Translations under genes and position numbers: made by a program | Shown here: piece by piece, positions 7,201 through 41,291 of the stretch | Layout: every line of letters starts with the position of its first letter | Numbering within the stretch: position 1 is the first letter of the stretch | From: Chloroflexaceae bacterium | GTDB lineage: Bacteria > Chloroflexota > Chloroflexia > Chloroflexales > Chloroflexaceae | Direction of reading: 5' to 3' | Length of the DNA: 41,291 bases | Assembly: GCA_028282325.1 (NCBI GenBank) | Contig: JANQID010000011.1 | Location: 1-41,291, forward strand | The notes under the pieces: generated by a model | The model's input: the letters and a program-made list of their open reading frames with translations, nothing else | What the model was told of the DNA's origin: nothing | Database searches by the model: none

Positions 7201-7983
7201 ATGCTGCTTGTTGTCGATATCGGCAATACCAACATCAAGTTCGGCATCTATCAGAACGACCGCCTGATCGCCCATTGGCGCGTGGCTACGGATCGCCTCA
7301 AGCTCGCCGACGAGTACGCCGTGCTGGTACACAACTTGCTTGAGATGACCGGGCTGGAGATGTCACAGGTCAACGGGTGCGCTATCTCATGCGTGGTTCC
7401 GCCGCTGACGGCGCAGTTCCGCGAGTTGGCCCAGACGTATATGCGGCTCGAACCGGTGATCGTCAACACAGAGGTCTATACCGGTTTGCGTTATCACATC
7501 GACAGCCCAACCGAACTGGGCGGAGATCGTATCACGAATAGTCTGGCCGCTTATCGTATGTGCGGCGGTCCGGTGATTACCATCGCGCTGGGAACCGCCA
7601 CGGCGATGGATGTTGTCAACGCCGATGGCGAGTACATTGGCGGGGCGATCGCCCCCGGCATCGGCATTAGCGCCGACGCGTTGTTTCGCAACGCGGCTCG
7701 CCTCTACCAAGTCGAGCTCATTCGACCGCCCAAAGTCCTCGGTACAAACACAATCCATCAAATCCAATCCGGGTTAATCCTGGGCTATGCGGGATTGATC
7801 GAAGGACTGATCTATCGCGCCCATGACGAACTGGGAGGTCCTTGTCCCGTGGTGGCGACCGGTGGTCTGGCCGAAGTTATCGCCAGCGAGACATCGGCTA
7901 TCACGCGCGTGGAGCCGTATCTCACGTTGGATGGGCTACGCCTCATTTACGAGATGAATCAAAATATGCAATCTGTCAGATAG
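7201..7983 (+). CDS. coaX: Type III pantothenate kinase
   Basis: A 260-residue ASKHA-fold kinase catalysing the first step of CoA synthesis, ATP-dependent phosphorylation of pantothenate. The N-terminal phosphate-binding loop is VVDIGNTNIKFGIY (residues 4-17). The pantothenate-binding/dimer motif ELGGDRITN is near 102-110, and GTATAMDVV near 125-133 carries the catalytic region. GGAIAPGIGISADALF and VVATGGLAEVI are further conserved blocks. Type III kinases need a monovalent cation and are not inhibited by CoA, unlike CoaA. Together with coaBC at 3253 this gives three of the CoA pathway activities in one neighbourhood, although on opposite strands. Confidence 0.96.
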   Translation: MLLVVDIGNTNIKFGIYQNDRLIAHWRVATDRLKLADEYAVLVHNLLEMTGLEMSQVNGCAISCVVPPLTAQFRELAQTYMRLEPVIVNTEVYTGLRYHIDSPTELGGDRITNSLAAYRMCGGPVITIALGTATAMDVVNADGEYIGGAIAPGIGISADALFRNAARLYQVELIRPPKVLGTNTIHQIQSGLILGYAGLIEGLIYRAHDELGGPCPVVATGGLAEVIASETSAITRVEPYLTLDGLRLIYEMNQNMQSVR

Positions 7984-11776: not shown

Positions 11777-13060
11777 TTAGTCTGCGGTTGGAATAAAATG
11801 ACCCACGACTCGGCGCTGTTCGGTGAGATACGTTTGCGCGGCCCGGCGCACATCATCGGTGGTTACGGCGGCCAGTTCATCGAGCAAGGAATCCACGCGC
11901 GCGTAGCTGTCAAGAACTTCCCACATACCCAGTTGGAACGCCTGATTGGTGACGCTCTCGCCGCTGTAGGCGACCTGCGCCCGCAGTTGCTTGCTGATTT
12001 TGGCCAACTCGTCGGCGCTCACGCCATCCTGCTGGATTTTCTCGATCTCGCCAATCAGCGCGGTCTCGACTTCATCCGCCGTCCGATCATCGTGTACGGT
12101 CGCGTGCAATTCAAACAGAAACGGATCACGCGTGGGCATATACGAACTGCTCGCACTACTGGCCAATTCGGTCTCGACCAGCGCCTGATAGATGCGCGCA
12201 CTACGGTTGGTCTGAGCCCCTCCGCCGGAGAAACTCAACGGCTTCGCGCCGCTCAGCGTCGCATCGAGAACCGCCAGCGCGGCAAAATCCGCATGGCGAC
12301 AATCGGGAACTAGATAGCCCATCTGCACATACTGCGCCGGGCCGGGACGCCGAATCACTACGCGGCGCTCGCCCTGGGGCTCCGGCTCAACAGCACGAAC
12401 ACTCGGCAGCGCCGGGCCCGCCGGCAAGTCGGCAAAATATCGCTCGACCTGCTTCATCACTTGATTGGTATCGAAATCGCCGATCAGAACCAGGATCGCG
12501 TTATTGGGCATATAGTAGGTCTGGTAATAATCGTAAAGCTCATCGCGAGTCATCGCGAGCAGGTCGCTCTTATAGCCGATCACCGGATGATGGTAGGGAT
12601 GCACTGTGAAGGCCGCCGCCTTAACCGCCTCGTCGAGCCAGGTCTCAGGATAATTCGCATACCCCTCCAATTCGGAAAGGATGACCGTACGCTCGCTGTC
12701 CGTTTCGTCCGGCTCAAATAGCGAGTTGATCATACGATCCGACTCGATGTGCAACCCTAGCTCAAGGCGGTCAGCCGGCAACGTCTCATAATAAGCTGTA
12801 AAATCCGTCCAGGTGAACCCGTTGAAAACGCCGCCGTTACGCGCGACCGTGCGATCCAGCGTACCGGCAGGAATTGACGGCGTGCCCTTGAACAACATAT
12901 GTTCCACCCAATGACTGACCCCGGTGAGTCCGCTCGGTTCATTGCGCGACCCGACGCGATACCAGATCCAGCATGTCGCCACCGGGGCGCTATGCACTTC
13001 ACGAGTTAGCACCAGCATCGTATTGGGCAAAGTGTGCGCTTGCACACGTATGGAGGTCAT
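11777..13060 (-). CDS. M16 family zinc metallopeptidase, catalytic subunit
   Basis: 427 residues from the ATG at 13060, which has AAGGAG 6 nt upstream; a longer frame to 13114 is less likely. The inverted zinc motif is HWVEH (residues 50-54), with the third ligand Glu130 in ERTVILSE downstream, as in mitochondrial-processing-peptidase-like M16B enzymes. The C-terminal domain has the typical MPNNAILVLIGDFDTNQVMKQVERYF block and FSGGGAQTNRSARIYQAL. It should degrade or process unfolded peptides together with the HxxEH-less partner encoded just downstream. No signal peptide is visible, so it is probably cytoplasmic. It is the first gene of a three-gene unit. Confidence 0.95.
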   Translation of the reverse strand: MTSIRVQAHTLPNTMLVLTREVHSAPVATCWIWYRVGSRNEPSGLTGVSHWVEHMLFKGTPSIPAGTLDRTVARNGGVFNGFTWTDFTAYYETLPADRLELGLHIESDRMINSLFEPDETDSERTVILSELEGYANYPETWLDEAVKAAAFTVHPYHHPVIGYKSDLLAMTRDELYDYYQTYYMPNNAILVLIGDFDTNQVMKQVERYFADLPAGPALPSVRAVEPEPQGERRVVIRRPGPAQYVQMGYLVPDCRHADFAALAVLDATLSGAKPLSFSGGGAQTNRSARIYQALVETELASSASSSYMPTRDPFLFELHATVHDDRTADEVETALIGEIEKIQQDGVSADELAKISKQLRAQVAYSGESVTNQAFQLGMWEVLDSYARVDSLLDELAAVTTDDVRRAAQTYLTEQRRVVGHFIPTAD

Positions 13061-13263
13061 ATTCGCTCCTTCATCACATCCAACAGCGCATCCTGCTTGT
13101 TGGCGTTGCGACAATGCAACAAAGCGATCAGGCGCGCAGATTCACGCGCCGATCAGGATTACGATCTTCAGTATATCGATATGTATGACATACGAATTAT
13201 GATACCACGTTCGGCGCTCATTTCTCGCTATGTGCAGCAGCGCATACGCCTATCGTCAATCTA

Positions 13264-13300
13264 AAGGAAAAGAGCTGGATCATTAATTGATCCAGCTCTT
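13264..13300 (-). terminator. Strong intrinsic terminator for the CbiT-like gene
   Basis: A perfect 13-bp inverted repeat (13270-13282 with 13288-13300, AAGAGCTGGATCA) with a 5-nt loop is followed on the minus strand by TTTTCCTTT. It lies about 50 nt after the stop of the minus-strand gene at 13349 and would insulate it from the M16 operon. Confidence 0.8.
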
Positions 13301-13348
13301 GTTGATCGATGATTCAGCACTCACGCATTGCTCTGCATAGCGTACGGA

Positions 13349-13912
13349 TCAGGCGAAAGCAAATGTTTTCACATCCTCATACTGCCAGGCCAGCACAAAC
13401 TGAGTCGAGGCGGCCACGTTATCATACTCGTTAGCTTCGATCTGAATCTCCATAACCCAAGCATTGGGCAGACTCTCGCGCACGATTTCGAGACTCTCTG
13501 GAGAAGTCAGATTAAGCACTATACGACCGCCGGGAAGCAAGCGTTGCCGCGCCGTATCCATAACCGCTCGCATTCGGACGCCGCAATCGGCGATGAAGAC
13601 CGCATTCGGATCAGGCCAATCAGCGCACACCTCCGGCGCGACGCCATCGGAGATCAGCAGATTGGGCGCAAGCAAGCGACGCAATCGTTGATGAATATGT
13701 CCATACTCCGGTGAGAGTCGATCCAGCGCATAGACCCACGCCGCCGGTTGATACAAGGCAGCGCCAATACCGATCTCTGTACGGCTCGCATCGATCTCCC
13801 ACAGCACCTCGTCGGGTTCCAGCACCAACTCGCCCAGGCTGAGCAAATCAACTTCTTCTCGGGTGCGTAGCCTGGTCGAAGTTTCTGGTCGGCTAATCAA
13901 CCGAACATCCAT
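13349..13912 (-). CDS. CbiT-like methyltransferase-fold protein with broken SAM loop
   Basis: The 187-residue product from the ATG at 13912 aligns in pattern with CbiT/CobL C-terminal precorrin methyltransferases. It has TREEVDLLSLGELVLEPDEVLWEID at the start, PDPNAVFIADCGVRMRAVMDTARQRLLPGGRIVLN in the middle and a final STQFVLAWQY strand. In CbiT the first strand is followed by a GAGTGS loop that binds SAM. Here it is DASRTEIGIG, so SAM binding as in the family is doubtful. No other cobalamin genes are in the window. An upstream in-frame ATG at 14008 would add an Arg-rich stretch unlike the family and is disfavoured. It could be a repurposed methyltransferase fold. A strong terminator follows. 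Confidence 0.7.
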   Translation of the reverse strand: MDVRLISRPETSTRLRTREEVDLLSLGELVLEPDEVLWEIDASRTEIGIGAALYQPAAWVYALDRLSPEYGHIHQRLRRLLAPNLLISDGVAPEVCADWPDPNAVFIADCGVRMRAVMDTARQRLLPGGRIVLNLTSPESLEIVRESLPNAWVMEIQIEANEYDNVAASTQFVLAWQYEDVKTFAFA

Positions 13913-21201: not shown

Positions 21202-22068
21202 GTGCCAACCGCTCTGATCTTTACGCTGCGCCCTGATCGCGAAGCTGTGGTGCCTTCTAACCTGGGCCGGGCCACTCATGCGGCCATACTCCGCTTGATC
21301 GCCAAAGATGATCCCGAACTGGCTGAAAATATCCACGAAAACGACGGCCCCAAACCGTTGACGGTCTCAAATGTTCATGGCTTGCGTCGCCGTGGCGCAT
21401 CAGCGCAAGTATCGACTTCCACGACTTACCATTTGCGAACCACGCTATTGTCATCCAGGTTGGAGGAATTGGCGCAGTCCTGGCAGCCAACAACGATTCA
21501 AGCGCTTGATCTTGACGGCATGCCATGGATAGTAGAACAAGTCATTACCGCGCCGGCGGATAACTCCTGGGCGGATCGGACAACCTATGATCGCATTGTC
21601 GCAATGTCTCAGTTGTACGATTTCAACAACCCCTATCGATGGACATTCGAATTCGCCTCACCGGTCACATTTCGCCAACACGGGATCAACCAACCATTGC
21701 CAACCCCTGATCTTGTGTTTGGCAGCCTGCTCGATAAATGGAATGTATTTGCTGCAAAACCATTGCCCAACGATATTCGCCGTCTCATAGGAGAACGGCT
21801 CGCGATCAGTCGCTTTGAATTGAGTTCGGTCGCCGAAACGACCAAGAATGGCGCATTGCAGATTGGTACAATCGGGCGCTGCACCTATACGATGACCAAG
21901 CGCGATCATCACTTGACGCCATATATCGATACGCTGGCGCGATTTGCTTTCTACAGTGGTATCGGAGCGGGGACAACGCGCGGCTTTGGGCAAGTTCGCT
22001 TGCTAGAGTTATCCACAACGCCGCCGCCGAAAGGCTTTCAAAGGACGCGCCAGATTGGCGGCGACTAG
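21202..22068 (+). CDS. cas6: CRISPR-associated endoribonuclease Cas6, orphan
   Basis: 288 residues, GTG start with AGGAGG 8 nt upstream. The product matches Cas6 RAMP proteins, which cut CRISPR precursor RNA inside the repeats. The N-terminal ferredoxin-like domain has RATHAAILRLIAKDDPELAENIHE, with His26 in the region where many Cas6 proteins carry the catalytic His. The middle reads RWTFEFASPVTFR and LPTPDLVFGSLLDKWN, a well-known Cas6 block. The C-terminus has the Gly-rich RAMP loop FYSGIGAGTTRGFGQVRLLE. No other cas gene and no repeat array lie within the window on either side. It may serve arrays elsewhere or be a relic or repurposed RNase. A structured palindromic segment (22069-22107) follows the stop. 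Confidence 0.88.
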   Translation: MPTALIFTLRPDREAVVPSNLGRATHAAILRLIAKDDPELAENIHENDGPKPLTVSNVHGLRRRGASAQVSTSTTYHLRTTLLSSRLEELAQSWQPTTIQALDLDGMPWIVEQVITAPADNSWADRTTYDRIVAMSQLYDFNNPYRWTFEFASPVTFRQHGINQPLPTPDLVFGSLLDKWNVFAAKPLPNDIRRLIGERLAISRFELSSVAETTKNGALQIGTIGRCTYTMTKRDHHLTPYIDTLARFAFYSGIGAGTTRGFGQVRLLELSTTPPPKGFQRTRQIGGD

Positions 22069-34628: not shown

Positions 34629-34727
34629 TCAGTCCATCTCGAAGACCCAGGGATGTTCCTGGAAGGGGCCTGCACCGGCCTGCGGCGCAAGAACCGCCCC
34701 CTTTATGTCAAAACGAACCTGGCTCAT
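34629..34727 (-). CDS. Possible 32-residue ORF overlapping the hsdR stop
   Basis: The ATG overlaps the hsdR TGA as ATGA, typical of coupled genes. The peptide starts MSQVRFDIKGAVLAPQAGAG and ends EHPWVFEMD. It is too short to assign. It may be the start of a gene truncated by the repeat at 34454-34586 or a short accessory protein. Confidence 0.4.
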   Translation of the reverse strand: MSQVRFDIKGAVLAPQAGAGPFQEHPWVFEMD

Positions 34728-37700
34728 TGCTGCGCTCCCTGGAATGCCCCATACACCACATCCAGCAGCGCGGCGGCGAAGCCCGTACGCACGCGCTCGT
34801 TGCTCAGGATCTGGGTGATCATAGTCTGGTAGCTGTCCATCCCGCCGACCACCTCGTTCATCATGACCGTCTCGAAATCGCCCAGGGCGAACTGCTCTTT
34901 GCTGTTGTGGCGCGCCTGCTGCGCCAACGTCGGGTTGGCGATCATACGCTCGCTGATGTGCGTCACCAGCCCGATCATGTCAGCCTCGCTTAGCTCGCCC
35001 TCGAACAGGTCGTTCATACGCTGGATGATCTCGGCCAGCTTTGCCTTCTGCGGGTCGCGGCTCTCGCCCGATCCGACCTCGCCCGGCGGGGTTAGCTCAT
35101 AATCGCCGTCGCCCTCTTTCAGGTTCAGCCATCGCGCCCCCTGGTCCTTCAGCCGGTAGTGGGTGAGCTGCACCCCGGAGAGGTCGATCTCTTCGCCGAG
35201 CCGGTCGGCGGCCAACAGCGGCAGCAGCAGCCGGAAGAAGATCGCCCGCTTCTCCAACTCGGTATCGGCGTAGTTAATGATCTGCGATAGGAAGTCGTAG
35301 AGCCGCACGAAGCTCGCCAGATCCTTACGGAACAGATCCAACTCATCCAGGCGCTTCTTATCGCCGGCGTCGCGGGCGTCGCTCCAGCGCTTGCGGAAGC
35401 GATCGACCGCCGGGGCCAGCGCCGCCTGGAGCGCGGCCTGCTTGCCTTTGGGATCGAGGTAGACCTTCACAAAGGTCTCGATCTCAGACTCCGCGTAGAT
35501 CCGGGCATCGTCGAGTTTGGCCTGAAGTGTGTGGATCAGGTTGGGGTCGGTGACGCCGGCCAGTTCGGCGCGTTTGTAGTAGGGCTTGAAGGCGTCCAGG
35601 ATCTGTTCCGGGTCGTTGACGAAGTCGAGGATGTACGTCGCATCCTTGCCCGGCGCGGTGCGGTTTAGCCGCGAGAAGGTCTGCACGGCGGTGATGCCGT
35701 CGATTCGCTTGTCGACGTACATCGCGCAGAGCAAAGGCTGGTCGAAGCCGGTCTGGAATTTGTTGGCGACGATCAGCACCTGATACTCGTCGCCCTTGAA
35801 CGCCGCGCGGATATCGCGGCCCTTCAGCCCCGGGTTCATGCTTGTCTCGCTGAAGGGCTCTGGCCCGCTCTCGGGGTCGTGGACCTCGCCGGAGAAGGCC
35901 ACCAGCGCGGCCAGGTCGTGGTAGCCCTGCCGGCGGATGTAGGCGTCGAGGGCCAGTTTGTAGCGCACGGCCTCCTTGCGCGAGCCGGTGACGACCATCG
36001 CCTTCGCCTGGCCGCCCAGCAGGTGCTGGATATTGGCGCGGAAGTGCTCGATGATGATCTGCACCTTCTGGCTGATATTGTAGGGATGCAGCCGTACCCA
36101 GCGCATCAGCCCGCGCACCGCTGCGGCCTGCTCGACCTCGGTGTCGTCGTATTCACGCCCGTTGTGAGCCAGACGGAAGGCCAGTTTGTAGGGGGTGTAG
36201 TTCTGCAGCACATCGAGGATGTAGCCCTCCTCAATCGCCTGCTGCATCGTGTAGACGTGGAAGGCCGCCGGCATGTTCTGCTCGGAGGGCGGCGCGTCGG
36301 GATGAGGCCGGCGCCCGAAGCGCATCAGGGTCTTGGCCTTGGGCGTGGCGGTGAAGGCGAAGAAGCTGATATTCGGATGCGCGGCGCGATCCTCCATCTC
36401 GGCCAGCAGCAGGTCTTCGACGCTGACCTCTTCGCCTTCCTGGATCTGCTCGGCGGTGAGCACCTTGCTGAGGGATCCAGCCGCTGAGCCAGTCTGCGAG
36501 GAGTGCGCTTCGTCGGCGATCACGGCGAAGCGCCGCTCGCGTAGCGAACCCTCCTTCTGGATCGCCTCCAGTGCGAAGGGGAAGGTTTGCAGGGTGACGA
36601 TGATGATCGGCGCCCGGTCGAGCAACGCGCGGGCCAGTTGCTCGGATTTGACTCCGGCCCGGGCCTCGATCTTTGTCACCACGCCCTGCTTGTGCTCAAA
36701 CTGGTAGATCGTCTCCTGGAGCTGGGCATCGAGCACGGTGCGGTCGGTGACGACGATCACCGAGTCGAAGACCTTGCGGTCCTGTTCGTCGTGCAGGCTG
36801 GCGAGGCGGTGGGCCAGCCAGGCGATCGAGTTGGACTTGCCCGAACCGGCGGAGTGCTGGATGAGGCAGCACTGCCCCGGTCCCTCGCTGCGCGCCGCCG
36901 CCACCAGCGCCCGCACGGCGTCCCACTGGTGGTAGCGCGGGAAGATCAGGGATTCGCTAGTGACCTTGCGACCGCGATCGTCTTCGCGTTCCTGCTGCTC
37001 CAGATGCACGAAGTTGGCCAGGATGTCGAGCAGGCTGTCGCGGGCCAGCACCCGCTCCCAAAGGTAGGCGGTGCGGTAGCCGTCGGGGTTGGGCGGATTG
37101 CCCGCGCCGCCGTCGTGGCCCATGTTGAAGGGCAGGAAGCGTGTGGCTTTCCCCTCCAGCCGGGTCGTCATCCAGACTTCGTCGGTGCTGACGGCGAAGT
37201 GGACCAGCGCCCGGCGCTTGAACTGGAGCAGCGGCTCGTCGCGATTGGTGGCCGGGTCGCGCGGGGGCCGGTCGCGGCGATACTGGGCGATGGCGTCGCG
37301 CACGCTCTGGGTGAAGTCGGTCTTCAACTCGGCAGTGGCGACGGGGATGCCATTGACGAAGAAGACCAGATCGATCGCGTCGTTGGTCTCGTTGCGGCTG
37401 TAGTGTAGCTGGCGCACCACCCGGCAGCGCACCTGCGCGTAGCGGGCCAGGGTGGTCGGGTTGAGGCCCTGAGCCGGCTGAAACTGGCACATCGCGAAAC
37501 GGGCGTTGATCTGCTTGAAGCCGCGCCGCAGCACCGCCAGCGCGCCTTCCTGGTCGAGCATGGCTGCGAGCCGGGTGAGCAGGACCTTGCCGGTATCGCC
37601 GTTGTGCAGCCGGCCCAATTTGGCCACCTCGTTCGGTTGGGTCTCCTCCAGCCAGCCGAGCACGTCTTCGGGATACAGCGCCAATTCGCGGTCATAGCCG

Positions 37701-37783
37701 TCGCTCATTCCCTCCAGCCAGCCGTGGGTCGTGAGGCGGGCGACAATCTCGTCCTCGAAGGTTCGCTCGCGGTGTTTGCTCAT
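34724..37783 (-). CDS. hsdR: Type I restriction enzyme, R (motor/endonuclease) subunit
   Basis: 1019 residues. The N-terminal PD-(D/E)xK nuclease domain has Asp138 and the Glu152-x-Lys154 pair (AIDLVFFVNGIPVATAELK). The SF2 helicase core starts with Walker A QHSAGSGKS (309-317), then IADEAHSSQTG (DEAH, 424-427), FFAFTATPKAKT, VANKFQTGFDQPLLCAMYVDKR and QTFSRLNRTAPG. The C-terminal helical region that binds the MTase complex is present, so the subunit looks complete. It cleaves unmodified DNA far from the recognition site after ATP-driven translocation. It is the last large gene of the island hsdS / antitoxin-like / hsdR fragment / fic / hsdR; hsdM is not in view. Its first 23 codons are duplicated at 39303-39371. 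Confidence 0.95.
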   Translation of the reverse strand: MSKHRERTFEDEIVARLTTHGWLEGMSDGYDRELALYPEDVLGWLEETQPNEVAKLGRLHNGDTGKVLLTRLAAMLDQEGALAVLRRGFKQINARFAMCQFQPAQGLNPTTLARYAQVRCRVVRQLHYSRNETNDAIDLVFFVNGIPVATAELKTDFTQSVRDAIAQYRRDRPPRDPATNRDEPLLQFKRRALVHFAVSTDEVWMTTRLEGKATRFLPFNMGHDGGAGNPPNPDGYRTAYLWERVLARDSLLDILANFVHLEQQEREDDRGRKVTSESLIFPRYHQWDAVRALVAAARSEGPGQCCLIQHSAGSGKSNSIAWLAHRLASLHDEQDRKVFDSVIVVTDRTVLDAQLQETIYQFEHKQGVVTKIEARAGVKSEQLARALLDRAPIIIVTLQTFPFALEAIQKEGSLRERRFAVIADEAHSSQTGSAAGSLSKVLTAEQIQEGEEVSVEDLLLAEMEDRAAHPNISFFAFTATPKAKTLMRFGRRPHPDAPPSEQNMPAAFHVYTMQQAIEEGYILDVLQNYTPYKLAFRLAHNGREYDDTEVEQAAAVRGLMRWVRLHPYNISQKVQIIIEHFRANIQHLLGGQAKAMVVTGSRKEAVRYKLALDAYIRRQGYHDLAALVAFSGEVHDPESGPEPFSETSMNPGLKGRDIRAAFKGDEYQVLIVANKFQTGFDQPLLCAMYVDKRIDGITAVQTFSRLNRTAPGKDATYILDFVNDPEQILDAFKPYYKRAELAGVTDPNLIHTLQAKLDDARIYAESEIETFVKVYLDPKGKQAALQAALAPAVDRFRKRWSDARDAGDKKRLDELDLFRKDLASFVRLYDFLSQIINYADTELEKRAIFFRLLLPLLAADRLGEEIDLSGVQLTHYRLKDQGARWLNLKEGDGDYELTPPGEVGSGESRDPQKAKLAEIIQRMNDLFEGELSEADMIGLVTHISERMIANPTLAQQARHNSKEQFALGDFETVMMNEVVGGMDSYQTMITQILSNERVRTGFAAALLDVVYGAFQGAQQ

Positions 37784-37866
37784 AGCGCAACTCCCCGTCG
37801 CTGCAGAATGTGCGCGAAGTACAAATCTCGTCGGTAGAATTGTCGTTTGCGGGCAAAAAGTACAAT

Positions 37867-39048
37867 TTACCCGTCGGGTCGGTTGAGTATCTGCAAGATC
37901 GCTTCGGCGACAAAAATGCGGCCATAGCTGGTTTCATTGTACGGACGCAGGATGCCCGCCTCGACCAATCGCTCGATACCGCGACGGGCGCTGTGATACG
38001 TCACCTCCAGCGCATCGGCGGCCTGAGGAATGCTCAGGAATGGTGTCTCGAACAGCAGATCGACGAGGCCGATCAGCACCGCCGAGCTGCGTGCCTGGGT
38101 CACCTGCCGACGCCATTCCTGCTGGATCTCCTGCAGACCTCTGGCGCGGTTGATTGCGTCGCGCGACTGTTCGGCAACGCCTTGCAAGAAGAAGTCGAGC
38201 CAGCCGACCCAATCCCCCCGCTCGCTCACCGCGAGCAGCCGGTCGTAGTATTCGTTGCGCCGGCGATCGAAGTAGGCGCTGAGTGAGAGCAGGGGGGCCG
38301 GGAGCAGTTGCCAGTGATGGAGCAGCAGCGAAATCAGTAAGCGCCCGATCCGCCCGTTGCCGTCGCGAAATGGGTGAATCGCCTCGAACTGGTAGTGGAT
38401 GAAAGCGATCCGCATCAACGGTGGATAGTCGTCGGCACTGTGGAAGTAGCGCTCCAGTGCGTCGAGACATGCCTGCAACTCAGATACCGGCGGCGGGATG
38501 TACTCGGCTTCCTGGAGTTGGCCCCGCGCCCGCCCGATCCAGTTCTGGATGCGGCGGAACTCGCCGGGCGCGGCTTCCTGTCCCCGCACCCCGTCCATCA
38601 GTCGCTCGTGCAACTCGCGAATCAGCCGCAGGCTGATCGGCAAGGTTGCCAGCCGGTCAAGGCCATAGCGCAGGGTGTGAACATAGTTGAGCACTTCGCG
38701 CACATCAGATTCGGGCGGCAGCGATTGCATACCCGATAGAGTGAGCTGACCCGCCTCGTAGGCATACAGGTCGGCGATGTTGGTCTGGGTGCCTTCGATC
38801 CGCGACGAGAGCACCGCCTCGCGCCGGACAAAGGGGCCAATCAGCAGTTCCGGGTTCGGCAGCATCCGCCCCAGCCCGGCCAGCTCGCCAAGCGCCCGAT
38901 CGGCCTCGGAAAGGATGCGTACCAGCGATGGATCGAGCGCCAGTGCAGGCGGCAGCGGATGCGGCACAAATGCCCAGTACTCAGTCGCATCCTGGCGTGC
39001 GGCGACCACCCGGCCGGCTGTGCTCTGGGCAAAACGATCGAGATTCAT
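37867..39048 (-). CDS. Fic family protein (probable AMP-transferase) with N-terminal Fic_N and C-terminal wHTH
   Basis: 393 residues. The catalytic motif HPFRDGNGRIGR (225-236) is complete, so it should transfer AMP (or another NMP) from a nucleotide to a target hydroxyl. SSRIEG (81-86) is the class-II inhibitory helix motif in the same chain, whose Glu blocks productive ATP binding. A winged-helix-like region at about 320-392 (FLSIPQAADALEVTYHSARRGIERLVEAGIL) suggests DNA binding or autoregulation. It sits between hsdS and hsdR, 83 nt before hsdR, in the position where type I systems often carry accessory genes. Target unknown. Confidence 0.93.
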   Translation of the reverse strand: MNLDRFAQSTAGRVVAARQDATEYWAFVPHPLPPALALDPSLVRILSEADRALGELAGLGRMLPNPELLIGPFVRREAVLSSRIEGTQTNIADLYAYEAGQLTLSGMQSLPPESDVREVLNYVHTLRYGLDRLATLPISLRLIRELHERLMDGVRGQEAAPGEFRRIQNWIGRARGQLQEAEYIPPPVSELQACLDALERYFHSADDYPPLMRIAFIHYQFEAIHPFRDGNGRIGRLLISLLLHHWQLLPAPLLSLSAYFDRRRNEYYDRLLAVSERGDWVGWLDFFLQGVAEQSRDAINRARGLQEIQQEWRRQVTQARSSAVLIGLVDLLFETPFLSIPQAADALEVTYHSARRGIERLVEAGILRPYNETSYGRIFVAEAILQILNRPDG

Positions 39049-39124
39049 CGCAGCACCTCGGCGCAGACGGCCTGATGGCTCTCACCCCCAGGAAGCAGGA
39101 GTTGGGTCTGGATTCTGAGCGTAG

Positions 39125-39302
39125 ATTGTTCATTGGGAGTAGGAATGAACACTGGAGTGCCATGCACCTCTATGTCATTCCGACTCCTTCGACTGCGCGG
39201 CTCCCGCCCCTCGGCAAGCTCAGGAACCGCCTGTCGAGGGGCAGGGTAAACTCCGTGGAGGAATCTGCACTGCGACTCCGTGCAACTCACCGAAGACCCC
39301 CG
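39125..39302. repeat. Repeat-derived segment between fic and the hsdR fragment
   Basis: Non-coding mosaic with an inverted CTCCCGCCCCTCGGC / GTCGAGGGGCAGGG-type pair and a GGGTAAACTCCGTGGAGGAA block that recurs, partly inverted, at 41082-41147. It joins the hsdR fragment at about 39302, where coding homology stops. Confidence 0.5.
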
Positions 39303-39371
39303 CAGCCAGCCGTGGGTTGTGAGGCGGGCGATAATCTCGTCCTCGAAGGTTCGCTCGCGGTGCTTGCTCAT
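39303..39371 (-). pseudogene. 5' fragment of a second hsdR (23 codons)
   Basis: The 69 nt encode MSKHRERTFEDEIIARLTTHG plus two codons and match the true hsdR start (37715-37783) at 66 of 69 positions. Two changes are silent and one gives Val to Ile. The frame runs on into the repeat at 39302 and downstream, giving a spurious 108-codon ORF to 39045. The ATG overlaps the TGA of an alternative antitoxin frame (TGATG), as though this was once the normal hsdR start. Confidence 0.85.
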
Positions 39372-39414
39372 CAGGCGCTCACTCCCTGATTCCTTTCGCC
39401 CCGGTCAACTGCGG

Positions 39415-39546
39415 TCAGGACGATTGCCAGGCGCAATTTTGCCTGCGATAGGTCAGAAAAACGCGCCATCCCGCTGGTAAGGAAACTGTTTCGAGTAACC
39501 GAATATCGCCGTGCTCATCAATGATCGCTTCAATCGTACGAAGCAT
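39415..39546 (-). CDS. Antitoxin-like small ORF (43 residues)
   Basis: ATG 39546 has AGGAGGT 6 nt upstream. The peptide starts MLRTIEAIIDEHGDIRLLET and continues VSLPAGWRVFLTY, which matches the N-terminal beta-hairpin pattern of small plant-type antitoxins (DUF2281/AbrB-like, RLLEPVxLPAG). The usual acidic helical C-terminus is absent: the frame ends early, and another frame continues to overlap the hsdR fragment. It may be truncated or frameshifted. It lies between hsdS and the hsdR fragment in the same orientation, and no toxin gene is recognisable beside it. Confidence 0.5.
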   Translation of the reverse strand: MLRTIEAIIDEHGDIRLLETVSLPAGWRVFLTYRRQNCAWQSS

Positions 39547-39583
39547 GATCGACCTCCTGTCGCTTTGGCGCCACCCGTTTATT

Positions 39584-40927
39584 CTAGCACCCTATCCCCC
39601 GCACGTCGATCTGCCCCGTCACCGCCGCCGCGATCAGCGCCGTGCGATGCTCCCGCAACACCGCGCTGAAGGCCTCGGCTTTGGCGATGAGGGTGTCGAT
39701 CTGGGCGGTTTCACTTGTGATCTGATTGAGGAGAACTATTTGCTCAGGTACGGGCGGAAAGACGAAAACAAGATTTCGAATCGTCGACTGAGAGATATTC
39801 TGCATCGACTGACTGGCACCTGTGGCATCTACTTCCATTTGAACCCGCACCATAGGTGTACGCAATATCAATGTCACATATTCAGGCGTCGATTGCTTTG
39901 GATCTATACGTAGACGATAAAGCTTGTCACAAAGCAGGAGGTTTGGATGGTCTTGTGAAACAACAGCAGCACTTCCAACCAATTCTCGTGTATTGGCTCG
40001 TGATATGAGAACATCACCGAGGCAAACGATAAGGCTCTCGATTGGCTCTAGATCATCCGGCAGTGCTTTGTTCTCAGTAGGATCGAACGTGTTGCCATTA
40101 ACACAACCTACCTTCAATATTCCCCACTCGTTGCCTTCCGCAGGCCTATTCTCACATTGAGGACTCCAGCCCTGGTCGAGACTCAATAGGCAGTACTTCA
40201 GCCGCTTCACCTCCCAACCCGCCGGCACCGCCCCCAGCCACGCCACCCCACTGTCGCGCATCGGCGCGGCGGGGTCGAGGCCCTTCGTCACCGCGTGGCT
40301 GATCAGCGCCCGGCGCTTCTCTTGCAGCAGCGCCACTAGCGCCGCCTGCTTCGCGATCAGCGCGTCGATCCGCGCCGTCTCCGCGTCGAGGAAGGCAGCG
40401 ATGGCACACTGCTCGGCGAGGGGGGGGAGGGGTAGTCGTAGTTTTACGAGGTCAGAGGAATTGATTGCTGGATAACTAATACCGACTGAATATGCGACTA
40501 CCTTATCTAAAAAGCATGGAGCCTTCACAGCATAGGCGAGAAACTCTGCATCGACGCCTTTCTGGGGACGAAGCACAGCAAAACCTGTTGACACGACTAC
40601 ACCCGAGAGTGAAAGGTCGATTCTTGCGATTGCCTTCAGATATGTCCTGACTGTGGAAATAATAATGTCTCCGGTTCGTGCAATGCGCCGGGCACGGGAA
40701 GGTGATTTCTGAAAAACGACAGGTTGGACGTTTGTCACACCATGCGTTTCATCTACATCTGAGATCTCAACATACCTGAATTCAAAATCAGGATGGGTGC
40801 TCTCTGGCAATACTTCATCATTGTGAGATGCCAAGTACTTGAGTGGCTTGGTTTCCCAATGATCAGGCACGTCGCCTACCCACTCCACACCCGAGTCCTT
40901 ATACGCCGGATAGCGCGGGAAGCTCAT
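39584..40927 (-). CDS. hsdS: Type I restriction-modification specificity subunit
   Basis: 447 residues that dictate the two halves of the DNA target for the HsdM/HsdR complex. Two target-recognition domains are visible. TRD1 spans about residues 15-175, beginning YKDSGVEWVGDVPDHWE. TRD2 spans about 225-400, beginning with the repeat of that motif, RDSGVAWLGAVPAGWE. Each is followed by a helical spacer: PLPPLAEQCAIAAFLDAETARIDALIAKQAALVALLQEKRRALI and VPEQIVLLNQITSETAQIDTLIAKAEAFSAVLREHRTALI. The TRD-coding DNA is visibly more AT-rich than the spacer-coding DNA, as expected after TRD exchange. Its ATG overlaps the stop of an upstream ORF as ATGA. Confidence 0.95.
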   Translation of the reverse strand: MSFPRYPAYKDSGVEWVGDVPDHWETKPLKYLASHNDEVLPESTHPDFEFRYVEISDVDETHGVTNVQPVVFQKSPSRARRIARTGDIIISTVRTYLKAIARIDLSLSGVVVSTGFAVLRPQKGVDAEFLAYAVKAPCFLDKVVAYSVGISYPAINSSDLVKLRLPLPPLAEQCAIAAFLDAETARIDALIAKQAALVALLQEKRRALISHAVTKGLDPAAPMRDSGVAWLGAVPAGWEVKRLKYCLLSLDQGWSPQCENRPAEGNEWGILKVGCVNGNTFDPTENKALPDDLEPIESLIVCLGDVLISRANTRELVGSAAVVSQDHPNLLLCDKLYRLRIDPKQSTPEYVTLILRTPMVRVQMEVDATGASQSMQNISQSTIRNLVFVFPPVPEQIVLLNQITSETAQIDTLIAKAEAFSAVLREHRTALIAAAVTGQIDVRGIGC

Positions 40928-41133
40928 AGCGATACCTCGTTCGATTTCACAAGCGCCTTCATACCCAACCCCTGCTGCTCCCTGTGCTCAAGGACGGACA
41001 GAATATCGCCGCGTATCGCCGTGGCCCGCATAGTAGCACATTGCATGGTACACCAATGAATCCCAATATCATTCCGCCCGAAGTGGAGGAATCTGCCGTG
41101 CGACTCGCTGCCATGCAGTACAGACCCCTCCAC
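40924..41133 (-). CDS. Unidentified ORF overlapping the hsdS start
   Basis: A minus-strand frame ending at 40924 overlaps the hsdS ATG by ATGA. Its last 30 residues (RATAIRGDILSVLEHREQQG and KALVKSNEVSL) look protein-like. The part before about 41030 is repeat-derived, so the true upstream sequence may have been cut by the repeat. It could be the tail of hsdM or of another small gene, and I cannot identify it. Confidence 0.3.
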   Translation of the reverse strand: MEGSVLHGSESHGRFLHFGRNDIGIHWCTMQCATMRATAIRGDILSVLEHREQQGLGMKALVKSNEVSL

Positions 41134-41291
41134 AGAGTTTACCCTGAGCGCAGCCGAAGGCGTCGGGGTGACAATGTGCTTCGGTGCACGGTGCTTCGGT
41201 GCAGACCCCTCCGCTCCGTTCCGCTGCGCTCCACTGCGGTCGGGGTGACAATGTGAGATTGACCCGCTTTCAGTGGAGGAATCTGCCGTGC
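41082..41291. repeat. Repeat cluster at the right edge
   Basis: AGTGGAGGAATCTGCCGTGC occurs exactly at 41082-41101 and 41272-41291 in direct orientation, the second touching the window edge. Between them are two copies of CGGGGTGACAATGTG and a tandem TGCTTCGGTGCA. The CCTCCACAGAGTTTACCC stretch is the inverse of the repeat at 39245. No gene is carried. Confidence 0.7.

Follow-up and report, generated by a model that had tools for sequence, protein, structure and literature searches.

Additional genes are known to occupy the interval between hsdS and hsdR in the type I restriction loci of several bacteria. The rlo genes of Campylobacter are embedded between these two genes (PMC5183652), DarTG2 lies between them in enteropathogenic Escherichia coli, at a site called a potential recombination hotspot (PMC12255303), and TgvAB is found in the same interval in Vibrio cholerae (PMC11411939). 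The locus described here resembles all three in having accessory, often defensive genes in the hsdS-hsdR gap. Leftover hsdR starts, leftover hsdS ends, and layers of cargo separated by such stubs are not described in the available portions of these reports. No such stubs were described in the searched literature on hsdR remnants, embedding, and illegitimate recombination, many subscription papers, including the primary paper on Campylobacter rlo, being outside the search. The slot itself is already known, and gene-end stubs are without a description found in the searchable literature. Genes embedded between hsdS and hsdR serve as a clue to new defence systems, and stubs of the flanking genes offer a readable signature of past additions that is open to automatic search. 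These scars seem to record the addition of extra defence genes between hsdS and hsdR, and they may give relative age within a locus. They also point to homology in the restriction genes themselves, and not to a dedicated recombinase, as the driver of the build-up.

A duplicated hsdR start in a Chloroflexaceae type I locus

The window, the whole stretch of 41,291 nucleotides that was analysed, contains a type I locus on its minus strand in the order hsdS (40927-39584), a gene relic, an hsdR-start stub, fic (39048-37867), and hsdR (37783-34724). The intact hsdR (34724-37783) encodes a type I restriction subunit of 1019 aa with HSDR_N nuclease and helicase domains (Pfam HSDR_N, SWI2_SNF2, ResIII, and T1R_D3-like, above cut-off), and the specificity subunit gene hsdS (39584-40927; Pfam Methylase_S) is on the same strand in the same operon. 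The hsdM gene is located at 476-2260 on the minus strand of contig C135. A 17-base piece of repeat is common to the C89 end and the C135 start and suggests that the window's contig and C135 adjoin, which would give the order hsdM-repeat-hsdS. The contig-end repeat at 41272-41291 of the window also opens contig C135 (L052, G000:C135, 1-2260).

A sequence-only reading of this DNA had reported a 69-bp near-identical copy of the hsdR start in the same orientation, and this is borne out. By blastn, the stub at 39303-39371 (minus strand, 23 codons) is identical at 66 of 69 positions to 37715-37783, the first 69 bases of the intact hsdR on the same strand. A repeat search of the window aligns 37710-37783 to 39298-39371 (93% over 74 nt), and in a tiled test the first tile is the sole hsdR tile repeated upstream (E=1.5e-28). 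No copy was found near other type I loci of the genome, where the same reading had advised looking, and nucleotide and protein searches of the whole 4.6 Mb genome revealed no third copy of the unit. The stub and the intact start differ at codons 3, 14, and 18, two of the differences being synonymous and one a V-to-I change, and their flanks are unlike on both sides. The three differing sites and the different flanks make an assembly duplicate unlikely. The duplicate hsdR start is confirmed as real.

Between stub and fic lies a block of about 250 bases (39049-39302) that is partly repeat, with a core found again at 41083-41128 and where contig C135 begins. The truncated end of the stub borders directly on this block, which could mark a separate deletion. 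From the ATG of the stub, a predicted frame of 108 codons (39045-39371, minus strand) extends to a stop that overlaps the fic start (ATGA). A Pfam search with this frame gave no match. Through the overlap, the stub could act as a leader cistron for fic. A general rule that the stub frame enters the next gene is true in the window and fails in L094, L134, and L024, and was dropped.

The fic gene (37867-39048, minus strand) encodes a 393-aa protein of the SoFic type with Pfam domains Fic_N and Fic, which is matched by the PADLOC SoFic profile (E=2.6e-120) over residues 23-390. Its catalytic motif, HPFRDGNGR at residue 225, fits HPFx(D/E)GNGR, and its inhibitory motif, SSRIEG at residue 81, is N-terminal and fits (S/T)xxxE(G/N), which places the protein in class II. 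SoFic is reported to be an AMPylating abortive-infection toxin (PMC12249575), and the window's protein shares with it the two domains, the class II motif, and the SoFic profile match. In contrast to SoFic, which is followed by the 47-residue antitoxin AS1 (PMC12249575), fic in the window is followed after 83 bases by hsdR. Judging from its family, the Fic protein is probably a self-inhibited AMPylating abortive-infection toxin beside a restriction enzyme. A partnership between fic and the antitoxin-like reading frame upstream was considered and rejected, as relatives pair that frame with PemK and Fic has an inhibitory motif of its own.

The relic between hsdS and the stub consists of two pieces on the minus strand. 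The 5′ part of an antitoxin gene (39476-39561; 78-81% nucleotide identity to G010, G055, G022, and G023) has been joined through a deletion to an internal piece of a pemK-type toxin gene (39388-39461; 77-79% nucleotide identity to the pemK genes in G055 and G010), the toxin protein of G010 being a Pfam PemK_toxin. The MazE/PemK-type pair is thus not intact in the window, both members surviving as fragments only. The sequence-only reading had given the upstream order as hsdS, antitoxin-like ORF, and hsdR start; hsdS, relic, and stub do lie in that order, and what was called an ORF is the antitoxin 5′ part joined to the pemK piece.

Full-length relatives of this hsdR, 76-84% identical, occur in five genomes of the window's family. 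In G010 the antitoxin, the PemK-type toxin, and hsdR are contiguous, and in G023 the antitoxin and a pemK remnant precede hsdR, both loci being without fic and without the fragment. In G055 the order is hsdS, antitoxin, pemK, other sequence, and hsdR. The comparison with relatives lacking fic that the earlier reading had proposed therefore yields the contiguous antitoxin-pemK-hsdR order without the fragment (in G010, and in G023 with a pemK stub), whereas the relatives with fic that it had also called for did not appear: fic was found beside this hsdR in none of the relatives searched, family genomes included. Because the relatives keep this order, the stub in the window may be read as an older hsdR start in its old context. 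The segment 39561-39303 reads as a collapsed remnant of antitoxin-pemK-hsdR, in which the copy would be what is left of the resident hsdR start, still in position. Among related loci, pemK is truncated in three (L022, L024, and the window at 39388-39561), and the full antitoxin is kept in G023 and G022. In G022, about 25 codons of an hsdR start stand alone (L024, 1298-1372), followed by an NTPase-like gene instead of hsdR; this orphan start ends within about 3 codons of the end of the window's stub.

Gene-end stubs in other type I loci

The survey for comparable stubs covered 155 type I loci, with 80 from GTDB species, 69 from the window, its family, and its class, and 6 from E. coli. hsdS is upstream in 117 of the 155, and 71 of those 117 have an hsdS-hsdR gap of more than 300 bp; addition by hand of the contig-edge locus L134 brought the sample to 72. 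A stub was recorded where the N-terminal 60 residues of HsdR from that locus matched in the gap at E<1e-3. Stubs of the hsdR start are present in 5 of the 72 gaps, namely those of the window, L094 (Sulfurovum), L134 (Opitutae), L147 (Psychrobacter, with three), and L202, which belongs to a single-contig complete chromosome (G030) from the window's own taxonomic order. All of them are on the same strand as their locus (5/5 loci). About 1,150 control segments (about 16 tiles per HsdR) gave one marginal match and a continuation of an L147 stub, and the difference between gap stubs and controls is significant with the marginal match counted (Fisher P=4e-6). Tiling at the DNA level agrees with the survey at the protein level. 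The hsdR-start stub is thus a recurrent scar, occurring in unrelated bacteria. The recorded stubs span at most about 10% of the gene, which is shorter than expected from random break points.

In E. coli, two hsdR families that have hsdS immediately beside them, followed through 110 and 73 genomes, occupy one place each and have no stub, and viral and plasmid loci contain no further stubs. Several candidates were set aside: L171 and L226, whose several copies are scattered, stand in both orientations or lie downstream, and resemble dispersed repeats; L135 and L179, in which the gene is cut or its start mis-set; and weak single matches near E=1e-4. The downstream matches of L126 are mostly repeats.

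Stubs also occur at the hsdS side. The C-terminal 60 residues of HsdS are matched again (E<1e-10) in the gaps of L091, L110, L128, and L147; internal HsdS tiles gave nothing below 1e-3 in the gaps, and no hsdS stub was found in the gap of the window. L147 (2683-9980) is layered, with three hsdR-start stubs and two hsdS-end stubs between cargo genes. Its first part runs hsdS, an FRG-domain gene, an hsdR stub (303 bp), a gene, an hsdS stub, and a gene; there follow an hsdR stub, a gene, an hsdR stub adjoining an hsdS stub, two genes, and hsdR. The adjoining pair stands side by side at 7259-7411 and 7435-7497. A search for a near relative of L147 among plasmids returned short or partial matches only.

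The differences between stubs and intact genes, pooled over the window, L134, and L147 with L094 left out, amount to pS 0.50 vs pN 0.11, a synonymous bias carried mainly by one locus, L147. Stub 1 of L147 alone is biased at P=8e-10, and the window alone, with two synonymous differences and one nonsynonymous, gives P=0.13. Such a bias is expected if the copies diverged as working genes before the pieces met, and neutral local decay would not give it, so the Psychrobacter stubs at least appear to be the ends of other functional alleles.

Proposed addition of cargo at the hsdS-hsdR interval

Plasmids of Roseomonas mucosa (L235-L238) illustrate how the interval varies within a species and form a natural series in which cargo exchange can be followed. 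Their hsdR genes are about 95-96% identical and the hsdS end is conserved, whereas the cargo differs: hsdR is preceded by a GIY-YIG gene, by a DUF4268 gene, by a 100-bp gap, or directly by hsdS, and the beginning of the DUF4268 cargo can still be aligned to the 100-bp gap. Cargo has thus been swapped or lost within the species, mostly without hsdR stubs. This suggests that the hsdS-hsdR gap is a cargo slot whose contents are usually exchanged cleanly. On the favoured reading, cargo sometimes enters along with a new hsdR start instead, and the previous start is left behind.

For the window, the most likely reading is that cargo and hsdR were joined ahead of an older hsdR. To the whole reading, a cargo slot in which an incoming hsdR start joined near the resident start and stranded the old one, we assign a probability of about 55%. 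From the order in relatives, the slot would first have held an antitoxin-PemK pair directly before hsdR. Incoming DNA with its own hsdR start would then have been joined within the resident hsdR, at about codon 23, its other end recombining by homology within or beyond hsdR, and the old start would have been left as the 69-bp stub. The fic gene may have arrived in the same event as the new hsdR start. Of the earlier proposal that an older hsdR was replaced by a fic-hsdR cassette or had one placed in front of it, the older start in its old context stands, while the arrival of fic in that event remains conjectural. The mostly synonymous differences of comparable stubs elsewhere, chiefly in Psychrobacter, agree with the addition or replacement of a cargo-hsdR segment.

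Two routes would give this layout. Homology-facilitated illegitimate recombination produces one homologous and one non-homologous junction, and this junction pair, formed with linear DNA, would explain the stub. Alternatively, a circular piece with cargo and an hsdR start may have integrated by a single crossover. A mirror event on the hsdS side would leave hsdS-end stubs. Integrative elements such as SXT at prfC integrate into the 5′ end of a gene, and there too a new 5′ end takes over from the old one, which is left stranded; the window differs in having no integrase, and stub lengths vary. The shortness of the stubs is unaccounted for by a simple additive model, the breaks falling near the gene end. 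A more tentative extension, which we consider doubtful, is that the slot is stackable, with modules of hsdS end, cargo, and hsdR start added serially, perhaps as circles from the interval integrated by gene-end homology, so that stubs would give the order of defence-gene gain. The adjoining hsdR and hsdS stubs of L147 look like the junction of such a circle.

The main competitor, possible if on balance unlikely, is local duplication, in which the hsdR start, alone or with fic, was duplicated in tandem, the first copy decayed, and fic or the repeat came between by other means, with no imported allele. The copies are 95.7% identical, against about 75-85% for other genera, and at site 40 the stub has a derived base while the intact gene agrees with the relatives, as a decaying local copy would show. 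Gene ends duplicated in tandem are also known at L128 (220-bp units) and L053 (fic start). Against this, extra steps are needed to put fic between the copies and to remove a first fic, and the repeated stubs of L147 diverge at synonymous sites. The sequence-only reading had called the copy a precise molecular record of how fic joined the system, which is too strong for the window alone, as import and local duplication cannot be told apart on three differences.

The addition of cargo and hsdR ahead of an older gene has also to be weighed against a former pair of complete tandem hsdR genes, the first cut down to its start by a deletion ending at the repeat block. The block does abut the truncated stub end; yet a tandem pair of these hsdR genes is absent from all five full relatives, stubs elsewhere are short with no evident repeat at their end, and the explanation is improbable. 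Insertion of fic by a transposon or integrase-borne element that duplicated its target would account for direct repeats flanking the cargo, and is very improbable: 37700-39400 contains neither a recombinase gene nor terminal inverted repeats (a search around fic found one internal 14-nt pair only), and repeat lengths vary between loci from about 30 to 300 bp, whereas a target duplication would be of fixed length. The draft state of the genome, in 140 contigs, would allow for an assembly artefact, but this is scarcely credible given the three differing sites, the flanks that differ on both sides, and the comparable stub in the single-contig chromosome G030.

Other gene-end repeats

Several loci show repeats or junctions at gene ends of other kinds. 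In L128 (8499-9992), the hsdS end and the sequence following it stand in near-identical tandem units of 220 bp, plain copies which indicate that local duplication happens too. In L053 (4893-6372; G018), a fic relative that is 58-60% identical to the window's fic has its first 45 codons repeated just upstream in a plain tandem duplication of about 286 bp, and the duplicated fic start is joined to the apparent 3′ end of the preceding large gene. In L084 (Rhodococcus), the 3′ end of hsdR is repeated with 290 bp of flank at 83% identity (12826-13366 and 21414-21943), forming a repeat of 543 bp about 8.3 kb downstream of the hsdR end. In L166 (9556-12062), at the mutS-ygbA site of E. coli OW1E2, an AAA ATPase gene and a hypothetical gene occupy the expected place of hsdR, and the sequence common with KL53 sets in within the final 85 bp of hsdR.
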